64,000 nt of DNA from contig NZ_KI912107.1 of NCBI RefSeq assembly GCF_000517085.1, positions 5,515,980 to 5,579,979 on the forward strand. The letters are read 5' to 3'. Origin of the DNA: Saccharicrinis fermentans DSM 9555 = JCM 21142 (lineage in GTDB: Bacteria; Bacteroidota; Bacteroidia; Bacteroidales; Marinilabiliaceae). Within the stretch, counting starts at the first letter, position 1; each line of letters begins with the position of its first letter. Made by a program: the position numbers and the translations under genes. The notes under the pieces were generated by a model, which had not been told where the DNA came from, ran no database searches, and saw nothing but the letters and a program-made list of their open reading frames with translations. This document shows positions 961-57,947 of the stretch, piece after piece.

Positions 961-1065
961 AACGCGCTATGATTGTGTAATTAACTCCGCTGATCTTTTA
1001 TTCACAGCAGGGGATGATTAATTCTGGCGAGTTCCATATGGCCTTTGAAAAATAAATTTAAACAC
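961..1065 (+). promoter_or_regulatory. Conserved leader element, copy A (upstream of GH-A lipoprotein)
   Basis: This is one of four related leaders in the window. It holds AACGCGCTATG (961-971), a variable region with a possible GCTG/CAGC hairpin, ACAGCAGG, then ATGATTAATTCTGGCGAGTT and CCATATG, and finishes in AAATTTAAACAC immediately before the start codon at 1066. A 13-residue reading frame (MINSGEFHMAFEK, 1014-1055) lies inside it. The first block can pair with GGCGAGTT (1026-1033) apart from one G-A mismatch. Function is unknown; because it ends at the start codon, control of translation or mRNA stability is the simplest guess. Confidence 0.7.
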
Positions 1066-2589
1066 ATGAAAAAAGTTTTAATTTTTATAGGATTACTTTC
1101 TTTGGTGCTTTCTGTTTCTGCTTGTGATAGTGAAGATAGAGGTGTTCCAGAAAATGTAATGAAGAATAGGGTAATAAATATTACTTCAGAAGTAATATCC
1201 ACTGATTATGTGGGTAATGGAGCTCAGTGGGGAGGCTATGAATCAACACAGGATTGGATAGGTTCGGAAACGTTGAGTGATGAAGATTGGAATACGCTCT
1301 ATCAGCGAATAGATTTTATGCGTCCACCTTTTCTAAGGATAATGGTGAATGCATCGTCTTATATCAGCGAGGGTGTTTATAATGAAACGGCTAATTCTAG
1401 CTCTTTGTTTAAGATGTTAGACTATGCACAAAGCCGTGATATAGAAATTGCATACGGAGAGTGGGGACATCACTACAGCAACAATAACTTGCAGGATATA
1501 GATCTTGATTGGATTTCTCAATCAGTTAAGTTTTTAAATTTTTTGGTAAATGAAAAAGGTTACTCCTGTATTAAAACAGTGAATATCATTAATGAGCCCA
1601 ATGGAGAATGGTCCAGTGCAAAAGGTGATTATACGGCATGGAAAAATGCCCAAAGTGCTTATTTGGCTGAAATGGATAAGTATAGCGGGCTTTCTGCGGT
1701 TCAACTGATGGGACCTGATATTGCTATCTTTAACAGTGTGAGTGGAATAGACTGGATAACCAATGCTCATCATGATTTTGATGAATCGATTGGATTGTAT
1801 GATATTCACGTTTATCCCAAGCAGTTGATTGTGAGGAATGGTGATTATACAGAGATGCTCAAAGCTTATAGGGATGTTGTGCCAAATGAAAAGAAAATAG
1901 TGTTAAGTGAGATTGGTTTTAAATATGATGAGGTTGATTATGAACTAAAAGAAGCCAATGATAGAGCCATAGCAAATGATCCATATGCTGGAGATGATTC
2001 TAATATGATGATTTATGAGTCATTTTATGGTACGGATATGGCTGATGCTATTATGCAGTCGATGTTAGCTGGTTTTTCAGGTGGCTTGGTGTGGGATATG
2101 GATGATGCGATGTATGTTAGTCCCGATGGAAACAATTATAATGTGGATAAAATGAAACGTTGGGGATTCTGGAATATACTAGGAGAAGAACATGTAGGGG
2201 ATGCAGCAGATGAGGAGATACGTCCGTTTTTTTATCCGGTTTCCTTATTGTGTAGGTACTTTCCTGCTGGTACCACCATTTACAATGTGGAATTTGCCAA
2301 TAAAAAGGGTGTGCGTGCCGTGATGGGCGAAAAGGATGGAAAATATACCATCGCCATTGTGAATTCACACTATGTCGATTACGAAGTAGAGTTGAAGTCG
2401 GACTTTTTACCCAAAGTTACTCTCAATAAATACTGTTATGAAGTAGAAGAAGGACAGGCGTTTATTGGAGTTGTAGATGCCGATGGATTTGCTGTCCCAG
2501 TAGAGGAAAACGTGGTAATTGATTTTTCAAAAGGACTTGATATGACCTTGAAAGGAGAATCTTTTATACTATATACCAATATGGAATAA
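1066..2589 (+). CDS. Clan GH-A (cellulase-like) glycoside hydrolase, lipoprotein
   Basis: A secreted lipoprotein of 507 residues. The start at 1066 gives a signal peptide ending in SVSAC; an in-frame TTG at 1045 lies inside the leader element and is unlikely. The catalytic domain has the clan GH-A pattern: the putative acid/base Glu177 in IINEPNG and the putative nucleophile Glu282 in VLSEIGF, about 105 residues apart. A small C-terminal beta domain follows from about residue 410, as in GH5/GH30/GH39-like enzymes. I cannot assign a numbered family. It is paralogous to the product of 4823-6340 (shared GNG(A/V)QW, GEWG, NEPNG and GTDMADA/GVDMADA segments). With GH130 and an esterase beside it, an endo-acting beta-mannanase or related activity is inferred, not shown. 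Confidence 0.8.
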   Translation: MKKVLIFIGLLSLVLSVSACDSEDRGVPENVMKNRVINITSEVISTDYVGNGAQWGGYESTQDWIGSETLSDEDWNTLYQRIDFMRPPFLRIMVNASSYISEGVYNETANSSSLFKMLDYAQSRDIEIAYGEWGHHYSNNNLQDIDLDWISQSVKFLNFLVNEKGYSCIKTVNIINEPNGEWSSAKGDYTAWKNAQSAYLAEMDKYSGLSAVQLMGPDIAIFNSVSGIDWITNAHHDFDESIGLYDIHVYPKQLIVRNGDYTEMLKAYRDVVPNEKKIVLSEIGFKYDEVDYELKEANDRAIANDPYAGDDSNMMIYESFYGTDMADAIMQSMLAGFSGGLVWDMDDAMYVSPDGNNYNVDKMKRWGFWNILGEEHVGDAADEEIRPFFYPVSLLCRYFPAGTTIYNVEFANKKGVRAVMGEKDGKYTIAIVNSHYVDYEVELKSDFLPKVTLNKYCYEVEEGQAFIGVVDADGFAVPVEENVVIDFSKGLDMTLKGESFILYTNME

Positions 2590-2736
2590 GTATGCTTTTA
2601 GAGAGCTGCAAGTCGGTAAGAATTAAAAGAAAATAATCAAATGAGACGAATCAAGAGAAATACCTTGTACAAAAATGTTATGTATTCAGGTAAGTTTTAT
2701 TGGGTCGTTGAAAAATTAATGAAGTAGAATATTTAA

Positions 2737-2819
2737 AACGCGCCACGATAGAGTATTTCTCACACAGGAGCATGACTAATTTTGGCGAGTTTTATGCAAC
2801 AATTGAAAATTATAAACGC
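2737..2819 (+). promoter_or_regulatory. Conserved leader element, copy B (upstream of GH130)
   Basis: Same element as the copy before the GH-A gene: AACGCGCCACG (2737-2747), a short GAG-TATTT-CTC hairpin, ACACAGG (2762-2768), then ATGACTAATTTTGGCGAGTT. In this copy the internal reading frame has no stop and runs in frame into the GH130 gene, which would add MTNFGEFYATIENYKR to the enzyme. Because the homologous sequence elsewhere is a leader, those 16 residues are more likely leader than protein. Confidence 0.65.
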
Positions 2820-3833
2820 ATGAAATTAATAAAACATCCAGACAACCCTATATTAAAACCACATGCTACTAATTATTGGGAAAATTTAGTGGTCTGTAAT
2901 CCGGGGGTATGGTACGAAAATGGTAAATTCACGATGCTATATCGGGCAGCGGGTGATGATGAACAACATTTTATTAGAATGGGAACTGCGATAAGTACCG
3001 ATGGTGTGCATTTTGAAAGGGTATCGGATGAGCCAGCTTTTGGTCCAAGTATTGATGGTCCTGATCAAGGTGGGGTAGAAGATCCTAGAATTGTGAAGTT
3101 TGGTGATGAATTTTATGTGACTTATGCCTATCGACCCCATTATCCCGGCCAATATTGGAAATTTGCACATGATGTAATTCTTTTACCGGAATCTAATGCG
3201 TATTCTCCGGCGGTAATCAAGGAAAATATTGCTAACTCAGGTTTAGCCGTAACCAAAGATTTTATAAACTGGCGCCGTTTGGGCCGTATTACTGAAACAA
3301 ATCTGGATGATAGAGATGTTATCTTGTTCCCGGAAAAGATTCATGGTAAGTTTGCCATGCTTCATCGTCCGAAGCAATGGGTGGGTGAAGCATATGGATG
3401 TGATAAGCCAGCTGTTTGGATTCGGTTTTCTGATGATTTAATGGTCTGGAATGAACCGAGTAAATTGTTGTTGGCAGGTAAAGATGGAACATGGGAGGAA
3501 AAGATTGGAGGTAGTACCCCACCGCTAAAAACAGATGATGGTTGGTTGCTTCTTTATCATGGAGTTGAGAATGGTGGAGAAGGTTTTTACCGTGTAGGAG
3601 TAGCCTTATTGGATATAGATGATCCAACAAAGGTAATTGCTCGTGCCAGCGAATGGATCATGGAACCAGAGTATGAATATGAAACAAATGGGTTTTATCA
3701 GGGCTGTGTTTTTCCAACCGGTAATGTGATTGTTGACGATACTTTATATGTGTATTATGGAGCCGCTGATAAATACGTTGGATTGGCCACATGTAAAGTT
3801 TCTGATATTTTAGCATTTGTAAAAGGAATATAA
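2820..3833 (+). CDS. GH130 family beta-mannoside phosphorylase/hydrolase
   Basis: A cytoplasmic-type five-bladed beta-propeller enzyme of 337 residues without a signal peptide. GH130 hallmarks are visible: HPDNPIL at the N-terminus, NPGVWYENGKF, GGVEDPRI with the probable catalytic Asp88, GSTPPLKTDDGWLLLYHG, and YGAADKYVGLA near the C-terminus. GH130 members phosphorolyse or hydrolyse beta-1,4- or beta-1,2-linked mannosides; the exact linkage cannot be read from sequence alone. I start it at 2820 (MKLIKHP), 16 codons inside a longer frame, because the extra codons belong to the conserved leader. The next gene (esterase) starts 18 nt downstream, so the two are probably cotranscribed. Confidence 0.88.
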   Translation: MKLIKHPDNPILKPHATNYWENLVVCNPGVWYENGKFTMLYRAAGDDEQHFIRMGTAISTDGVHFERVSDEPAFGPSIDGPDQGGVEDPRIVKFGDEFYVTYAYRPHYPGQYWKFAHDVILLPESNAYSPAVIKENIANSGLAVTKDFINWRRLGRITETNLDDRDVILFPEKIHGKFAMLHRPKQWVGEAYGCDKPAVWIRFSDDLMVWNEPSKLLLAGKDGTWEEKIGGSTPPLKTDDGWLLLYHGVENGGEGFYRVGVALLDIDDPTKVIARASEWIMEPEYEYETNGFYQGCVFPTGNVIVDDTLYVYYGAADKYVGLATCKVSDILAFVKGI

Positions 3834-39476: not shown

Positions 39477-40508
39477 CTATTGCGCCTCCATCCATGAAGA
39501 GAACTCTTGAAACTCCTGGTTGTTTTCTGACATCCACAATAATACATCCTGGTTAAAACGGCAGCCACTGATGTAATAGCTAAAAGCTTCATCTAACTCA
39601 TTTCTGTGTAATTTAGAAAAGAAGTTGACATAAAAATCCCACCAGAACCCGTCTTTATCAACAGCTGATTCTTCCAGTACTTTGAAGAGAGTTGTGCTGT
39701 TGCTAACGAATTTATTTAATAGTTTATTTTTAACTTTTGATTTTGCATGGTCTTCCGAAAAATCAGATGGTTGAATCATGCTTACAGCTAATTCTGCATT
39801 GGCAAACTCGCCATAATTAAATCCGGCTTTAATCAGTTGAATATCTCGTTGTCCTTTCACACGAACGCCTTGGTTCCATAATGATTCCAGCATGTCATAG
39901 GCCGTAGAGCTACGGTCGCTGTCTTGTTCCAGTAGTAAAAAATAATACAAAGGCAGCATGCTCTGTACACGTTCTCCCATATCGAACATGGTATATGCCA
40001 ATAAAAGGTGGCTGCTGGCGTGTGCTGGGTATATCTCAATGGCAGAGATGGTATGCTCCATTGCTTCTTCCATCTGGTGATTGTTAAAGCAGGATAATGC
40101 TAGGTTGTAGTGTAAAAGGTAGTTGGATGGGTGCTTTTTTAGGGCTTCGCGATAGATCTTTCTGGCTTTTTTCGTTCTGCCCAGATTCTCCCATGCTGAG
40201 GCATTGATTAAATAAGCATCTTTGCTATATTCACCATCTTTCTTTAGTAGTTTGCTGCTGTAAATTGCGGCTGATTCATAGTCTTGCAATGTTAGATAAG
40301 TGGCCGCTATCTGGTAACAAACCAACTCGGAGTTACGGTTCATCTGATAGGCCTGTTTATACCAGGACAGCGCATTTTCGTATTTGCCGTTGTGATAGTC
40401 TGTCATACCTCTGGATACGATGGTTTCAAAATCAGAATTTTGGGCACCTGCCAATGAAGGAGCCAGCCACATACATAGCAATATCGTAATGATTAATTTA
40501 GCATTCAT
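39477..40508 (-). CDS. TPR-repeat protein, secreted
   Basis: A 343-residue protein. The start at 40508 (MNAKLIITILL) gives a clean signal peptide ending SLAGAQN; 19 upstream in-frame codons are not needed. About five TPR repeats follow between residues 25 and 190 (GMTDYHNGKYENALSWYKQA, AIYSSKLLKKDGEYSKDAYL and others), then a helical C-terminal region. TPR proteins of this kind act as periplasmic scaffolds; no partner is evident. Neighbouring genes are the Cse60-like gene and the DUF4837 locus, all on the minus strand. Confidence 0.75.
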   Translation of the reverse strand: MNAKLIITILLCMWLAPSLAGAQNSDFETIVSRGMTDYHNGKYENALSWYKQAYQMNRNSELVCYQIAATYLTLQDYESAAIYSSKLLKKDGEYSKDAYLINASAWENLGRTKKARKIYREALKKHPSNYLLHYNLALSCFNNHQMEEAMEHTISAIEIYPAHASSHLLLAYTMFDMGERVQSMLPLYYFLLLEQDSDRSSTAYDMLESLWNQGVRVKGQRDIQLIKAGFNYGEFANAELAVSMIQPSDFSEDHAKSKVKNKLLNKFVSNSTTLFKVLEESAVDKDGFWWDFYVNFFSKLHRNELDEAFSYYISGCRFNQDVLLWMSENNQEFQEFSSWMEAQ

Positions 40509-49154: not shown

Positions 49155-50264
49155 TTATTGTTGTTTACTTACCGACAATAGAGCACCAGTTTTAGGACAG
49201 ATTTCAATGACGACACTTTCCTTGCTGAGAACAGAAGGGGGCATGGAGATCACTTGACCATATTGGGCTAGTTTAACCTTTTTTGAGGCGATTGTTGTGT
49301 TTTTATCTACGATGGTAATTGTGGCAGGAGCAGGAAGATTATAGAACAGTCCATTTGGTGCGGGGTCTTTGGAACGTTCCGAGGAGTTGTTTTTCAACAC
49401 TTTCATTTTCTCCACATCCATTTTGAAATAAATGGGAGTACCAGTAATGTCCATGGCATCCACTAGTCCTTTTTGTTGATTGAAACGACACAGGACATGG
49501 TTGGTATAGCTACTTAATGGATCAGGTGTTAGTTCAAAACTTCGGGTCAGAGATACTGTAATTGTTTTGCCTGCAAAAAGTGAGACAAAATCTTTTTCTT
49601 GTTTCTCAATTTCTTTTAAGATTGTGTTATATGCCTCTCCGTCAGGAGGTAGGTTTTCTAACTCGCCAGAAAGCAAATTGGTTCGTGTACTGCGTAAGCG
49701 ATACACCATGTTGGCAGCTTCTTGCGCCATGGCTGCCGATGATGTTTTGTAAAGTAACTCCTCGTTTAACGCTACATTGTCAAAGTCAATTTCATCTAGG
49801 CTCAGTATAGGGTGTTGCTCTTTTGGGGGGAGCTGTGTGGAAAAGGGTAAGCTTGTATTGATGCCAGCCAAGATGCCTTCGGGAGTTAAAGTGAGCATTT
49901 GTGCCGAAGTGTTACCCTTTGTGAAAATACTAAACCTTTTGTCTTCATCCGCTTTTCCTGAAGTATGTATGTGTACTCCTTTGATAACCCATTCTTCACT
50001 ATCTTCTGTTATTACATTGCTAAGATTTAAATAGCGTTGTGAGTATCTATAGTATGGACCTGCCTTTTTAATTGTTTTTTCCATTTCAATATCCACACGA
50101 ATGCTTGTTTTAGGTAGCATATAGGTGAGAGATTGCGTGGTGGCATCCACTACCTGACTGGTGGGTTTTACATCAACCAGAGTGCTTTCTTTTTTTTGCG
50201 CAAGTATGGAGGAGGAGATCAAGAGTGCCCCCGCCATTAAAGTATAATATCTTTTAATTTTCAT
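49155..50264 (-). CDS. DUF4831 family secreted protein
   Basis: A 369-residue protein with a signal peptide ending ILAQKKE. The mature protein matches DUF4831: SLTYMLPKTSIRVDIEMEKT, GPYYRYSQRYLNLSNVITED, WVIKGVHIHTSGKADEDKRF, and a middle region VYRLRSTRTNLLSGELENLP with KTITVSLTRSFELTPDP. The family is common in Bacteroidota and has no known function; the beta-rich mature part suggests an envelope role. Unusually, it carries the conserved leader element also found before three glycoside hydrolase genes in this window. Confidence 0.82.
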   Translation of the reverse strand: MKIKRYYTLMAGALLISSSILAQKKESTLVDVKPTSQVVDATTQSLTYMLPKTSIRVDIEMEKTIKKAGPYYRYSQRYLNLSNVITEDSEEWVIKGVHIHTSGKADEDKRFSIFTKGNTSAQMLTLTPEGILAGINTSLPFSTQLPPKEQHPILSLDEIDFDNVALNEELLYKTSSAAMAQEAANMVYRLRSTRTNLLSGELENLPPDGEAYNTILKEIEKQEKDFVSLFAGKTITVSLTRSFELTPDPLSSYTNHVLCRFNQQKGLVDAMDITGTPIYFKMDVEKMKVLKNNSSERSKDPAPNGLFYNLPAPATITIVDKNTTIASKKVKLAQYGQVISMPPSVLSKESVVIEICPKTGALLSVSKQQ

Positions 50265-50350
50265 ATGTTTATAATTTGTTTCTTAATGGTCATATGGAAC
50301 TCGCCGTGATAATCATTCACCTGTGTGAGAGATCACTCTCATGGCTCGTT
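50265..50350 (-). promoter_or_regulatory. Conserved leader element, copy D (upstream of DUF4831 gene)
   Basis: On the minus strand: AACGAGCCATG (50350-50340), a perfect GAGAG-TGAT-CTCTC hairpin, ACACAGG, then ATGATTATCACGGCGAGTTC with CCATATGACCATT, ending in ATAAACAT at the start codon (50264). In this copy a frame from GTG 50320 reads through HGEFHMTIKKQ and ends with a TGA that overlaps the DUF4831 ATG as ATGA, an arrangement that allows translational coupling. Confidence 0.7.
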
Positions 50351-50392: not shown

Positions 50393-51910
50393 TCAATTTA
50401 AACTTTTAAACGCATTCCCTAGGTTCCTTATTATGTCAGAGGCTATTAAAGATTCTTTTGATTCCTGAAGTAAGGCTTTGTCTCCAGCTTTTCCATGTAA
50501 GTATACAGCTAAGGTGGCAGCTTTATCAGGGGGGTAATTTTGTGCAAGCAAAGCAAGAATTATACCAGTTAATACATCTCCACTTCCGGCAGTTGCCATA
50601 CCAGGATTACCAGTGGTATTAAAGTAGCATCTGCCATCGGGCATGCAGGTGACGGTATAGGCTCCTTTTAAAACTGTGATGACTTGGTATTGTTGACAGA
50701 AGTCTTTTAGTATCTTTAATCTGTGCATGTCATTTTTCCAAGAGCCTGCCAAGCGTTCAAATTCTTTTGGGTGTGGAGTTAAGATGGTTTGTTGAGGCAG
50801 TTTATTAAGCAAGTGTTTGTTTTCGCTCAATATATTCAACCCGTCTGCATCGACTACCAGGCTGTGATGTTCTATTTTGCTGAGCATATTTTCAAATGCC
50901 ACTACCGAATTTTTCTTTTTGTTTAGTCCAGGGCCAATGGCAATGGCATTAAATCCATTTAGTTCAGGGAACTCTGTGAAGATCATCTCTGAGCGGTCGA
51001 TACTTGCCATAGCTTCGGGTACACTGGATTGAATTATGTTGTAGCCCCAATGCGGAACGTGCACTGTTAGCAGGCCAACTCCTGCCTTAAGGCAGCCTTT
51101 GGAGGCTAATATTGCGGCTCCCATTTTGCCATAACACCCTGCAATTAAGAGGGCGTGACCATAGTTTCCTTTATGGCTATGTTGGAGGCGGTGTTTGTAA
51201 ATAGAAGTGATATAATCTTTCTCCACCAACACATGTGTTTCTTTTTGTTCTTCAATGTATTCTGCTAACAAGCCAATGTCCAACACATGCCAATGTCCAA
51301 CAAATTGGCTGTTTTCTGGCAGGAGAAAAGATAGTTTAGGAGTTTGAAAAGTTAAAGTGATATCTGCTTTTATTATGGCAGGAGAACCGGCATAGGACTC
51401 GTCATATTCGGCCATAAGGCCTGAAGGGATATCGATGGATATTACTTTGTTGGGTAGTTCATTTATTTTTTCAATCACTAATTTGGCCAATCCTTCAACG
51501 GGACGATTTAAGCCAGATCCAAAAATAGCGTCAATAATAATAGCATCCGGTTCTATTTGATTGAAATCTATATCCTCCAAAAAATCTATTTGACTGAGGC
51601 AGGCCGCATCTGTTTTTTTTAGGTGTTTGTAATTCAGTTTCGCATCTTTGCTTAACTTATCGGAAAAGTGAATCAGAAAAGCTTTTTTATTATAAGGAAA
51701 AGGATCGAGCATGCGTGTGATTGCCAAACCATCTCCACCGTTGTTTCCCGTTCCACAAAAAATATAATAGGAGGAGGCATCTATGTTTGAGATAATCCAA
51801 TCCATACATTTTTGTGCAGCACGTTCCATCAAATCAATGGAGGCTATGGGTTCGTGATCTATGGTAAATTGGTCGAGTTCCCTTGTTTGTTTTGGGGTTA
51901 ATATCTTCAC
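50393..51910 (-). CDS. nnr: Bifunctional NAD(P)H-hydrate repair enzyme
   Basis: A 505-residue fusion that repairs damaged NAD(P)HX. The N-terminal YjeF_N domain (1-215) is the epimerase: GTGNNGGDGLAITRML binds the nucleotide, and SIDIPSGL and ADITLTFQTPK follow. The C-terminal ribokinase-like domain (about 225-505) is the ADP/ATP-dependent dehydratase: NYGHALLIAGCYGKMGAAIL, IGPGLNKK, DADGLNIL, LTPHPKEFERL and GSGDVLTGIILALLAQNYPP. Length and fusion order are typical. Confidence 0.94.
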   Translation of the reverse strand: MKILTPKQTRELDQFTIDHEPIASIDLMERAAQKCMDWIISNIDASSYYIFCGTGNNGGDGLAITRMLDPFPYNKKAFLIHFSDKLSKDAKLNYKHLKKTDAACLSQIDFLEDIDFNQIEPDAIIIDAIFGSGLNRPVEGLAKLVIEKINELPNKVISIDIPSGLMAEYDESYAGSPAIIKADITLTFQTPKLSFLLPENSQFVGHWHVLDIGLLAEYIEEQKETHVLVEKDYITSIYKHRLQHSHKGNYGHALLIAGCYGKMGAAILASKGCLKAGVGLLTVHVPHWGYNIIQSSVPEAMASIDRSEMIFTEFPELNGFNAIAIGPGLNKKKNSVVAFENMLSKIEHHSLVVDADGLNILSENKHLLNKLPQQTILTPHPKEFERLAGSWKNDMHRLKILKDFCQQYQVITVLKGAYTVTCMPDGRCYFNTTGNPGMATAGSGDVLTGIILALLAQNYPPDKAATLAVYLHGKAGDKALLQESKESLIASDIIRNLGNAFKSLN

Positions 51911-55683: not shown

Positions 55684-55760
55684 AACGAGCCATGGGAAAC
55701 AGGTAGAGGGATGATTAATTTTGGCGAGTTCCATATGACCATTGAAAGATAAATTTAAAC
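55684..55760 (+). promoter_or_regulatory. Conserved leader element, copy C (upstream of GH3)
   Basis: AACGAGCCATG (55684-55694), ACAGG, then ATGATTAATTTTGGCGAGTT and CCATATGACCATT, ending in AAATTTAAAC at the start codon (55761). The internal frame MINFGEFHMTIER (55711-55752) ends 8 nt before the GH3 start. AACGAGCC can pair with GGCGAGTT (55723-55730) leaving two tandem G-A mismatches. It shows the shortest spacer of the four copies. Confidence 0.7.
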
Positions 55761-57947
55761 ATGAAAAGAGTATTATTATTCGCATTTGTAATCTGTTGTT
55801 TTTGTTTGGGTTACGGGCAGCAGGTAGATTTTTCCTTTGAAAATGATGCATTGCCATTGGAAGAAAGAGTAGATATACTGGTTTCTCAGATGACTACGGA
55901 AGAGAAAATTGGTCAGTTACTGAATGGGGCTCCTGCTATTCCTAGGTTAAATATACCGGATTACGATTGGTGGAACGAGGCTTTGCATGGAGTGGCTCGT
56001 AATGGAAAAGCAACGGTGTTTCCGCAAGGAATTGCTCTAGGTGCCACTTTTGATCCTGAATTGGCCTATAGAGTGGCTTCCGCTATTTCTACCGAGGCCA
56101 GAGCTAAATACAGTGTTTCGCAGCGTATGGGAAATCATAGTAAATATACAGGCTTAACTTTTTGGACCCCCAATGTTAATATTTTTAGGGATCCACGCTG
56201 GGGAAGAGGACAGGAGACTTATGGAGAAGATCCCTTTTTGATGGCCCAAATAGGGGTGTCTTTTGTAAAAGGACTACAAGGGAATCATCCTGTGTATTTA
56301 AAGACTGCAGCCTGTGCCAAGCATTATGCTGTACATTCAGGTCCAGAAGAATTCAGGCATACCTTTAATGCAGAACCTACGCAGCAGGATTTATATGAGA
56401 CTTATTTTCCTGCCTTTGAAGCCTTGGTAAAAGACGCTAAGGTAGAAGGTGTAATGGGGGCATATAATGCTGTTTTGGGTGAGCCAGCATGTGCCAATTC
56501 CTTTTTGTTAAAGGATGTGTTAAGGGAGCAATGGAAATTTGATGGTTATATCACGTCCGATTGTGGTGCCATTGGTGGTATCGCATGGAAACAGAAATAT
56601 GTTAAGTCGGCACCTGAGGCGGCTGCAGTGGCCTTAAAAGCCGGAGTTAACTTAAATTGTGGGAGTACTTACCAATATTTAAATGAAGCTTTAAAATTGG
56701 GCTTGGTAACCGAGGATCTAATTCATGAGCGTACTAAGCAATTGTTTAAAACGCGTTTTCGCCTGGGTATCGTAGGTAACCCTGGTGATAATCTGTATGC
56801 TAAAATCGGACCCGACAAGATTCATTGTGCGGAGCATGTGGCCTTGGCCCGTGAGGTGGCGCAGAAATCAATTGTGCTGCTAAAGAATAAAGACAATACA
56901 CTGCCTCTGTCTACAGATATTAAAGTGCCTTATGTAACGGGGCCATTTGCCAATTCTGGAGATATGTTAATGGGAAGTTATTATGGCATTAGTCCTAATT
57001 TAGTGACTGTTCTAGAGGGTGTTGCAGATGCTGTTTCTTTAGGAACTTCATTGAATTACAGAAGTGGGGCATTGCCTTTTCATAAAAATATTAACCCCAA
57101 AAATTGGGCGCCTAATGTTGCAAAAGAGTCGGATGTAACCATTTGTGTTGTTGGACTAACAGCCGATTTTGAAGGAGAAGAAGTAGATGCTATTGCTTCT
57201 GGTGCCATCGGTGATAAAGTGGATTTGCGATTGCCCCAAAATCAAATTGATTACGTTAAACAAATTGCCGATGTTAAAAAAGGCCCTTTGGTGCTGTTAA
57301 TTGCAAGCGGAAGTCCTGTTTCCTTAGAAGGTATTGAGGAGTATTGTGACGCGATTTTGCAAGTATGGTATCCGGGTGAGCAGGGAGGCAATGCTATTGC
57401 AGATGTCTTGTTTGGTAAGGTGTCTCCATCCGGACATCTTCCGCTAACTTTTCCAGTGAATGTGAATCAATTACCACCTTATGAGGATTACTCCATGAAG
57501 GGAAGGACCTATAAATACATGACGCAAGAGCCCATGTTTCCATTTGGCTTTGGCTTGACCTATTCAAAAACAAAATTGAGTGGATTGGTGCTGGAATCTA
57601 ATAAAATAAAGAAATCGGAGAATCTTATTCTTAGTGTTGAAGTAAGCAATGCTGGTGATTATGATATAGATGAGGTAGTGCAATTGTATGTTTGCCCTCT
57701 AGATACTACTGGGGGACTGCCTTTAAAGAGCCTAAAGGCGTTTAAAAGAATTGCTTTGCGCAAAGGAACGCATCAACAGATTTCTTTTAATGTTTCAGCA
57801 GATCAACTAAAAGTGGTAAATGAAAAAGGAGAAAAAATATGGAAAAAAGGACGTTATAAAGTAGTTGTAGGTAATGCATCACCAGGGGAGCTGAGTGTGA
57901 AATTAGGTGCTGCAGTTCCACAGGAAGCATTTGTTGAGTTAAGGTAG
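55761..57947 (+). CDS. GH3 beta-glycosidase (beta-xylosidase/beta-glucosidase type)
   Basis: A 728-residue secreted enzyme with a signal peptide ending LGYGQQ. GH3 domains in order: N-terminal TIM barrel (30-330) with RWGRGQETYGEDPFL, KHYAVHSGPE and the nucleophile Asp267 in ITSDCGAI; the alpha/beta sandwich (370-590) with VVGLTADFEGEE; and a C-terminal fibronectin-III-like domain (about 610-728). The KHYAVHSGPE and PTQQDLYETYFPAFE segments are most like beta-xylosidases, but beta-glucosidase is possible. It stands alone, away from the polysaccharide locus at the start of the window, yet carries the same leader element as two genes there. Confidence 0.9.
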   Translation: MKRVLLFAFVICCFCLGYGQQVDFSFENDALPLEERVDILVSQMTTEEKIGQLLNGAPAIPRLNIPDYDWWNEALHGVARNGKATVFPQGIALGATFDPELAYRVASAISTEARAKYSVSQRMGNHSKYTGLTFWTPNVNIFRDPRWGRGQETYGEDPFLMAQIGVSFVKGLQGNHPVYLKTAACAKHYAVHSGPEEFRHTFNAEPTQQDLYETYFPAFEALVKDAKVEGVMGAYNAVLGEPACANSFLLKDVLREQWKFDGYITSDCGAIGGIAWKQKYVKSAPEAAAVALKAGVNLNCGSTYQYLNEALKLGLVTEDLIHERTKQLFKTRFRLGIVGNPGDNLYAKIGPDKIHCAEHVALAREVAQKSIVLLKNKDNTLPLSTDIKVPYVTGPFANSGDMLMGSYYGISPNLVTVLEGVADAVSLGTSLNYRSGALPFHKNINPKNWAPNVAKESDVTICVVGLTADFEGEEVDAIASGAIGDKVDLRLPQNQIDYVKQIADVKKGPLVLLIASGSPVSLEGIEEYCDAILQVWYPGEQGGNAIADVLFGKVSPSGHLPLTFPVNVNQLPPYEDYSMKGRTYKYMTQEPMFPFGFGLTYSKTKLSGLVLESNKIKKSENLILSVEVSNAGDYDIDEVVQLYVCPLDTTGGLPLKSLKAFKRIALRKGTHQQISFNVSADQLKVVNEKGEKIWKKGRYKVVVGNASPGELSVKLGAAVPQEAFVELR

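Follow-up and report, generated by a model that had tools for sequence, protein, structure and literature searches.

Several described systems come close to the element reported here. MITEs, ERIC and the Rickettsia palindromic elements are small non-coding repeats that proliferate, as it does, and they can join transcripts or genes. REP and REPIN sequences with RAYT are, like it, short, hairpin-forming, high-copy, non-autonomous and mostly intergenic, and they lie in tandem or in clusters. With the ends of IS200/IS605, the source of the palindrome-associated elements (PATEs), it has in common hairpins, a short constant flank on the 5' side of the left end, an internal stretch that pairs with an end and the absence of terminal inverted repeats; with riboswitches and other RNA leaders it shares a covarying fold that precedes the start codon and takes it in. 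In the available part of PMC6006769, a GT(A/G)G tag adjoins the hairpin foot of REP sequences, and the guides of IS200/IS605 sit 5' of the hairpin foot. The available part of PMC4679880 describes TAACTGA heptamers in Beggiatoaceae, Cyanobacteria and some Bacteroidetes, arranged in tandem just upstream of the starts of unrelated genes.

The repeat unit and its fold

We analysed a 64-kb stretch of DNA, here called the window, in which a preliminary description had reported four segments sharing blocks of sequence in a fixed order and orientation. All four are present at the reported positions and on the reported strands, with the blocks in the order given. GGCGAGTT, which had been placed 36-41 nt before the start codon, indeed begins 40, 36, 38 and 41 nt upstream of it (1026 to 1066, 2784 to 2820, 55723 to 55761 and, on the minus strand, 50305 to 50264). 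The window contains six occurrences where 0.75 are expected, and none of 100 shuffles reaches six; four occurrences are the copies and the other two lie at 39805-39812 and 49660-49667 on the minus strand. The only exact matches to GGCGAGTTNNATRYR in the window are again the four copies, among 15 hits with up to two mismatches (6.2 expected, at most 11). A covariance model scores the four copies at E values of 3e-13 to 9e-18. The copies, the genes that they start and a fifth, decayed copy are as follows.

961-1069, plus strand: copy 1, a long hairpin-I variant (74.8 bits, E 3.2e-13), left flank ATGG, ending in the start codon of a 507-aa gene at 1066
961-968, plus strand: 5' strand of the hairpin I foot of copy 1, AACGCGCT
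1026-1033, plus strand: 3' strand of the hairpin I foot of copy 1, GGCGAGTT
1035-1040, plus strand: internal 6-mer CATATG of copy 1, pairing with the right end with one mismatch
1063-1068, plus strand: right end CACATG of copy 1, the start codon being the ATG at 1066-1068
1066-2589, plus strand: the 507-aa gene that copy 1 starts, without a Pfam hit at 1e-5
2638-2725, plus strand: fifth copy, decayed, in tandem upstream of copy 2 (model span including flanks)
2737-2823, plus strand: copy 2, left flank TTAA, ending in the GH130 start codon at 2820; internal TATGC pairs with right-end GCATG
2820-3833, plus strand: gene started by copy 2, GH130 (PF04041)
49155-50264, minus strand: gene started by copy 4, DUF4831 (PF16115)
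50261-50350, minus strand: copy 4, left flank GTGA, ending in the DUF4831 start codon at 50264
55684-55764, plus strand: copy 3, with a shortened hairpin I and a weak hairpin II, left flank ATGA, ending in the GH3 start codon at 55761
55761-57947, plus strand: gene started by copy 3, GH3 (PF00933/PF01915)

The decayed copy scores 28.8 bits (E 0.0014) with model R2 and 41.1 bits (E 2.2e-5) with the broader model R3. The window also holds a 17-base tandem repeat of 2.1 copies at 51268-51302, inside the ORF 50393-51910 (NAD(P)H-hydrate dehydratase/epimerase).

The unit is about 90 nt long, non-coding and made of two hairpins, its boundaries being read from tandem arrays in which the end of one unit runs into the start of the next. 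Its parts follow in the order AACGAGCC, an internal hairpin, ACACAGG, ATGATTA, GGCGAGTT, C, CATNTG, an A/T-rich stretch and CANATGA. Hairpin I has the foot AACGAG...CGAGTT, encloses the internal hairpin and closes with AAC/GTT, a GA/GA step and GCC/GGC. Hairpin II forms between the internal 6-mer, in most copies CATNTG, and the right end of the unit, in most copies CANATG followed by A. Terminal inverted repeats are absent by eye, the ends AACGAG and CANATGA not being complementary.

The pairs of hairpin II covary. In 54 sequences 309 of 324 cells are paired, a number that 500 strand shuffles do not reach (maximum 293), and the variable pair is A-U in 27, C-G in 11 and G-C in 11. The internal 6-mer covaries with the right end. 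An arrangement in which it pairs with the 5' (left) flank was rejected, as these two do not covary (243 of 324 cells paired, shuffled mean 243.6). For the internal hairpin, the 7-bp class (25 sequences) has 136 of 175 cells paired against at most 128 in shuffles, and the 6-bp class (29 sequences) has 142 of 170, which is not above shuffles (mean 140.5, maximum 145). Over the whole structure, three of five covariation measures beat all 500 shuffles in the narrower alignment A2 (54 of the 64 de-replicated copies, ten having been left out by eye); the other two are unexceptional, being reached by 89 and 73 of 500 shuffles. Hairpin I is invariant in A2 because the copies were found by that very pattern. 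Across subfamilies, in an alignment of 60 sequences fitted to the model (as were alignments A3, A4, A6, A7 and A8), 11 of the 15 pairs change on both sides, the covariation score is 0.281 against 0.117 shuffled (0 of 500 shuffles) and every measure exceeds all 500 shuffles. In diverged subfamilies GCC/GGC of hairpin I becomes GCA/TGC, often in a longer stem, and a C-G pair of the foot becomes U-A, while hairpin II is formed by CATCCG/CGGATG, CATTCG/CGAATG or AATACG/CGTATT.

When two diverged copies (L316 and L310) were folded freely, both hairpins were recovered. As RNA, copies 1, 2 and 4 of the window fold better than shuffled sequences, at z -2.5 to -3.0, and copy 3 does not (z 0.5); the best fold of copy 4, for which the sequence folded stopped within the start codon, lacks hairpin II. 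Under DNA parameters z is -1.3 for copy 4 and -3.7 and -2.6 for the two diverged copies.

Three further observations concern the interior of the unit. Small palindromes, for example CCCGATAGCTATCGGG, are inserted in some elements after the CAT of the internal 6-mer (L059, L066, L070, L071 (G062) and others in G022, G041 and G015), and by eye some of the interrupted elements keep leftover bases still able to pair with the right end. A short upstream ORF (MKRAM...) is present in copies; by eye a conserved peptide is not supported, because the length of the unit shifts the frame between copies. TAATTTTG, which we take to be the consensus of the Bacteroidetes -7 promoter box, lies by eye inside the unit in some copies only.

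Start codons, flanks and empty sites

A gapped exact pattern finds the element at 64 places in the 5.98-Mb genome to which the window belongs, and the reversed pattern at none. A covariance model built from 54 diverse copies raises the number to at least 150, every candidate scored having passed. We examined 150 contexts in this genome, which are 155 matches in the retrieved loci minus context duplicates (the equality with the model count is coincidental) and which come from loci chosen because they contained matches. Of the 150 copies, 108 finish on the ATG that opens an ORF of 60 aa or longer, and the offset is identical in 105 of these. The antisense control, taken on the opposite strand from the left end away from the unit, gave two of 150, and as a background 1092 of 5468 other ATGA sites in the same loci open such an ORF. 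The remaining 42 copies include inner units of tandem arrays and ends such as CATATAA or CATACGA. Among copies from other genomes, 21 of 35 end at an ORF of at least 60 aa.

The left flank is NTGA in 116 of the 150 copies and ATGA in 103; in the window it is ATGG, TTAA, ATGA and GTGA, hence ATGA in one of the four intact copies. The NTGA count fits a fixed short target 3' of which the element inserts and which is kept as the left flank. Duplication of a 4-base target is unsupported by the comparison of flanks, in which two of the 47 copies with a non-ATGA left flank match the right end, the left copy being free to decay. A short target duplication is possible, either of GA/TGA or of ATGA followed by decay of the left copy.

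The exact pattern is present in 36 of 119 genomes, this one included, and 33 of the 36 belong to one family. The reversed control pattern matches 16 of the 119 once or twice each, so that one or two pattern matches in a genome are in themselves no evidence. Model R2 detects the element in nine of 15 chosen genomes, with for example 99 copies in G020, 93 in G025 and 30 in G014. A genome of the same genus (G001) has five copies by this model, and copy number within one genus thus ranges from 5 to at least 150. In samples of Bacteroidota searched with stricter filters, five of 148 genomes (R2) and ten of 296 (R3) carry it, our own genome being in both. Relatives of the element are scattered patchily across Bacteroidota. 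By the DUF4831 protein the nearest named relatives are Marinilabiliaceae such as Labilibacter. There was no match in sequenced phages or plasmids, and one viral contig matched for each of two element patterns.

At eight genes (ksgA, comB, mgsA, aroA, P-II, ROK, pepT and PfpI) the relatives printed start at an ATG that matches the terminal ATG of the element. The names ksgA, mgsA, comB, aroA and pepT were assigned from Pfam hits and sequence. Relatives were inspected by sequence for 14 of 17 ksgA, two of five close mgsA, five of five comB and one of two P-II loci, and all 17 ksgA relatives were retrieved and then checked by the model. The orthologue search took nine of 14 gene segments against two relatives: aroA, P-II, ROK, pepT and PfpI yielded orthologues, leuB, pgsA and rimK had no match in these two relatives, and the response-regulator segment gave short matches only. 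The model finds a copy in one of 43 relatives' loci (37 for the eight genes and six for the DUF4831 gene of the window). This single positive among the 37 belongs to G007, which has two mgsA genes and carries a decayed copy at the second; L212 gave another two hits, both with E values above 0.5, and by eye the aroA locus of G004 keeps an element-like tail. At comB the flanking ATGA contains the stop of a long upstream reading frame, and both genes can therefore be kept.

Copies inside genes, which the preliminary description held to speak against its reading, occur in part, in that two copies of a relative (G009) lie within transposase-like, RAYT-like reading frames. Joining the flanks of one of them restores the LTF-QV frame of its homologues, and it is from this one G009 insertion that the exact junction is read. 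These in-gene copies have the right end CAGAAGA with CTTCTG or CCTCTG as its partner; pairing is therefore kept where no start codon is served.

A probable mobile repeat and the alternatives

Given the insertion polymorphism, the tandem arrays and 17 identical cores, we consider the element a mobile repeat that uses starts as landing sites. It is short, and it is probably non-autonomous, lands after (A)TGA, usually at a start codon, and rebuilds that codon with its own ATGA end. The old start would stay stranded upstream, replaced by the ATGA end of the repeat together with its A/T-rich tail. Because the end of the repeat takes the place of the start, insertions would be nearly silent and would accumulate, and start codons of the ATGA type would be the preferred surviving sites since the end of the element restores them. 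Tandem arrays would form because the right end is again an ATGA site where new copies land. Since the search for a mobiliser gave no linked enzyme, it is from the anatomy that we infer movement through a folded single strand, in which the internal 6-mer would recognise the end by pairing. Once landed, the element would be transcribed as the 5' leader of the gene, and its fold appears to be still under some selection.

A rival reading is a vertically kept cis-regulatory RNA leader, riboswitch-like or bound by a protein, that would control the translation of a regulon through the start codon held in hairpin II. Strict orientation, fixed spacing to the start codon and a covarying structure that takes in the start codon all speak for such a leader. 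The substitution data bear on it as well. At C-G pairs, substitutions that yield a G-U wobble are more frequent than those that yield A-C, 96 to 36 (107 clusters), and unpaired positions show no such wobble-favouring bias. On terminal branches of a tree pair-breaking G-to-A changes are depleted (34 of 901 against 67 of 986 at unpaired positions, p = 0.004), which counts for a leader as well as for the mobile repeat; C-to-T changes, by which a G-U pair remains, show no depletion (64 of 900 versus 47 of 776, p = 0.43). This pattern favours selection on the folded sense strand, which may be RNA or single-strand DNA, and what the constraint acts on could be the lineages that spread instead of the expression of genes.

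Gene function had suggested a leader at the outset. Three of the four window genes looked carbohydrate-like in the preliminary description (GH-A, GH130 and GH3); Pfam confirms GH130 and GH3, and the 507-aa gene assigned to GH-A has no hit at the threshold used. In the family at large, the 108 ORFs at copy ends match 127 Pfam families (25 listed), the commonest being SusD-like (6), sulfatase (4), GH43 (3) and GH2 (3), down to singles, all of them raw counts. Glycan enzymes and secreted proteins are common by eye, and an excess of glycan genes over the genome background is possible. Basic-metabolism genes are present too: copy ends include isopropylmalate dehydrogenase, EPSP synthase, RimK, 2-phosphosulfolactate phosphatase, alkaline phosphatase, rRNA adenine dimethylase, P-II, ROK and DJ-1/PfpI proteins. 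The genes downstream of the element are functionally mixed. What stands of the proposed cis-acting element is hence a structured, orientation-specific family that mostly ends at start codons; the coordination of carbohydrate genes is not supported by the 127 families, of which the commonest has six members, the four window copies being a small sample. Against a conserved leader there is, besides this lack of a common theme, the presence of the element at some and not other orthologous starts within the genus, together with the identical cores, the tandem arrays and the copies inside another gene. Furthermore, copies of relatives whose right ends lack ATG (CAGAAGA, CGTATTA) still pair. We regard a vertically kept leader as unlikely.

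The element could instead be a REP sequence moved by a RAYT of the same genome (TnpA-REP, a single-strand Y1 nuclease). Hairpin anatomy, high copy number and intergenic placement agree with this, as does the occurrence of RAYT-like genes or their relics in the genome and its family. No mobilising enzyme and no longer, gene-bearing or autonomous version was found in the loci retrieved. Y1-type genes (PF01797) occur in 57 of 71 genomes and do not track the element, since G014, G022 (76% complete) and G023 (a single pattern match) carry pattern matches without a PF01797 hit. We scanned 53 loci, mostly retrieved for their Y1-transposase hits and forming part of all PF01797 hits, and found the element at E 0.001 or better in three (L092, L086 and L137). 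L086 is a relic in the element-rich genome of the window itself, and in L092 the copies lie within the RAYT gene instead of on either side of it. Neither a linked tnpA nor a TnpA-encoding copy with the same ends was seen in these 53 loci. The palindromes beside the RAYT-like genes examined (L140, L142, L144 and L151, the last cut by its contig end) are of the CCGCTACCGCACG... type and not the element, and a RAYT of this genome is accordingly an improbable mover.

Two other repeats were noted in this connection. The RAYT-like genes of L140, L142, L144, L151 and L152 are flanked by palindromes of the CCGCTACCGCACG...CACGTGTGG type, which are perhaps the atypical REPs of Bacteroidetes RAYTs described in the available part of PMC6006769. 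Our own genome contains another dispersed repeat, about 113 bases long, which immediately precedes a truncated RAYT-like gene (L085, 1792-1904) and is met again beside or near element copies in L007, L015, L020, L032, L033 and L051.

The 53-base core of window copy 4 is identical at 17 places in the genome. A third alternative is that repeats exchanged sequence by homologous recombination or gene conversion and so spread with no transposition-like insertion. One near-identical pair (L007 and L032) has common surroundings, five others share upstream sequence above 60% that resembles a further unit's tail, and a subfamily in G009 is carried within a longer repeat. We hold this route to be very improbable, however, since only that one pair among the 17 has downstream likeness above 60% and copies sit precisely at the starts of unrelated genes whose relatives are empty. 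The G009 subfamily has both sides alike in L056, L088, L090, L091, L093 and L094, which suggests hitch-hiking.

If the element does insert after ATGA and rebuild the start codon, a repeat can spread densely in a compact genome with its genes unbroken, which would account for a large class of leaders in part of the Bacteroidota and would point to a mobilising activity still to be found. Leader surveys in these bacteria could otherwise take the element for a regulon. Bacteroidota rarely use Shine-Dalgarno sites, and the insertions would be natural replicated experiments on the effects of leaders on translation. A regulatory role after insertion is possible. Tentatively, the element might act as a portable 5' leader, with the ATG inside one of its hairpins, that puts very many unrelated genes of one genome under one structured initiation signal, kept by the host and perhaps serving global control.

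Comparison with known systems

The TAACTGA heptamers are 7-base direct repeats of a different sequence and unit which, in the available part of PMC4679880, do not supply the start codon. We found no description of the element in the literature searched. Unlike REP sequences it has no GT(A/G)G or CGTC-type tag; its foot is AACGAG...CGAGTT and its left flank mostly TGA, it is anchored at start codons and supplies the ATG, and the RAYT-like genes seen here keep company with other palindromes. In contrast to IS200/IS605, the single internal 6-mer sits on the 3' side of the hairpin, and its pairing partner is the right end.

Integron attC sites were also compared. The R boxes, for which we assume the consensus RYYYAAC and GTTRRRY, do not fit by eye, since the element has TGAAAC and GTTCCAT; the likeness is limited to AAC/GTT and an unpaired GA/GA spacer. 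Riboswitches differ from the element, which is without an Rfam match or a shared gene function and whose insertion varies between related species. At gathering level the sole Rfam match in the window is a cobalamin riboswitch elsewhere (RF00174, 38781-38983, minus strand; 59.1 bits, gathering 31.5), and relaxed scans gave only sub-gathering hits outside the element, in line with the preliminary description, which did not recognise a described riboswitch or leader in it.

Collectively, REP sequences, IS200/IS605 derivatives, MITEs, attC sites and riboswitches each fail or leave open at least one of the features tested, and to our knowledge none of these kinds includes a rebuilt start codon. Compared with MITEs, ERIC and the Rickettsia palindromic elements, this element differs in lacking terminal inverted repeats, and it is a start codon that it rebuilds, rather than a frame that it disrupts or extends.
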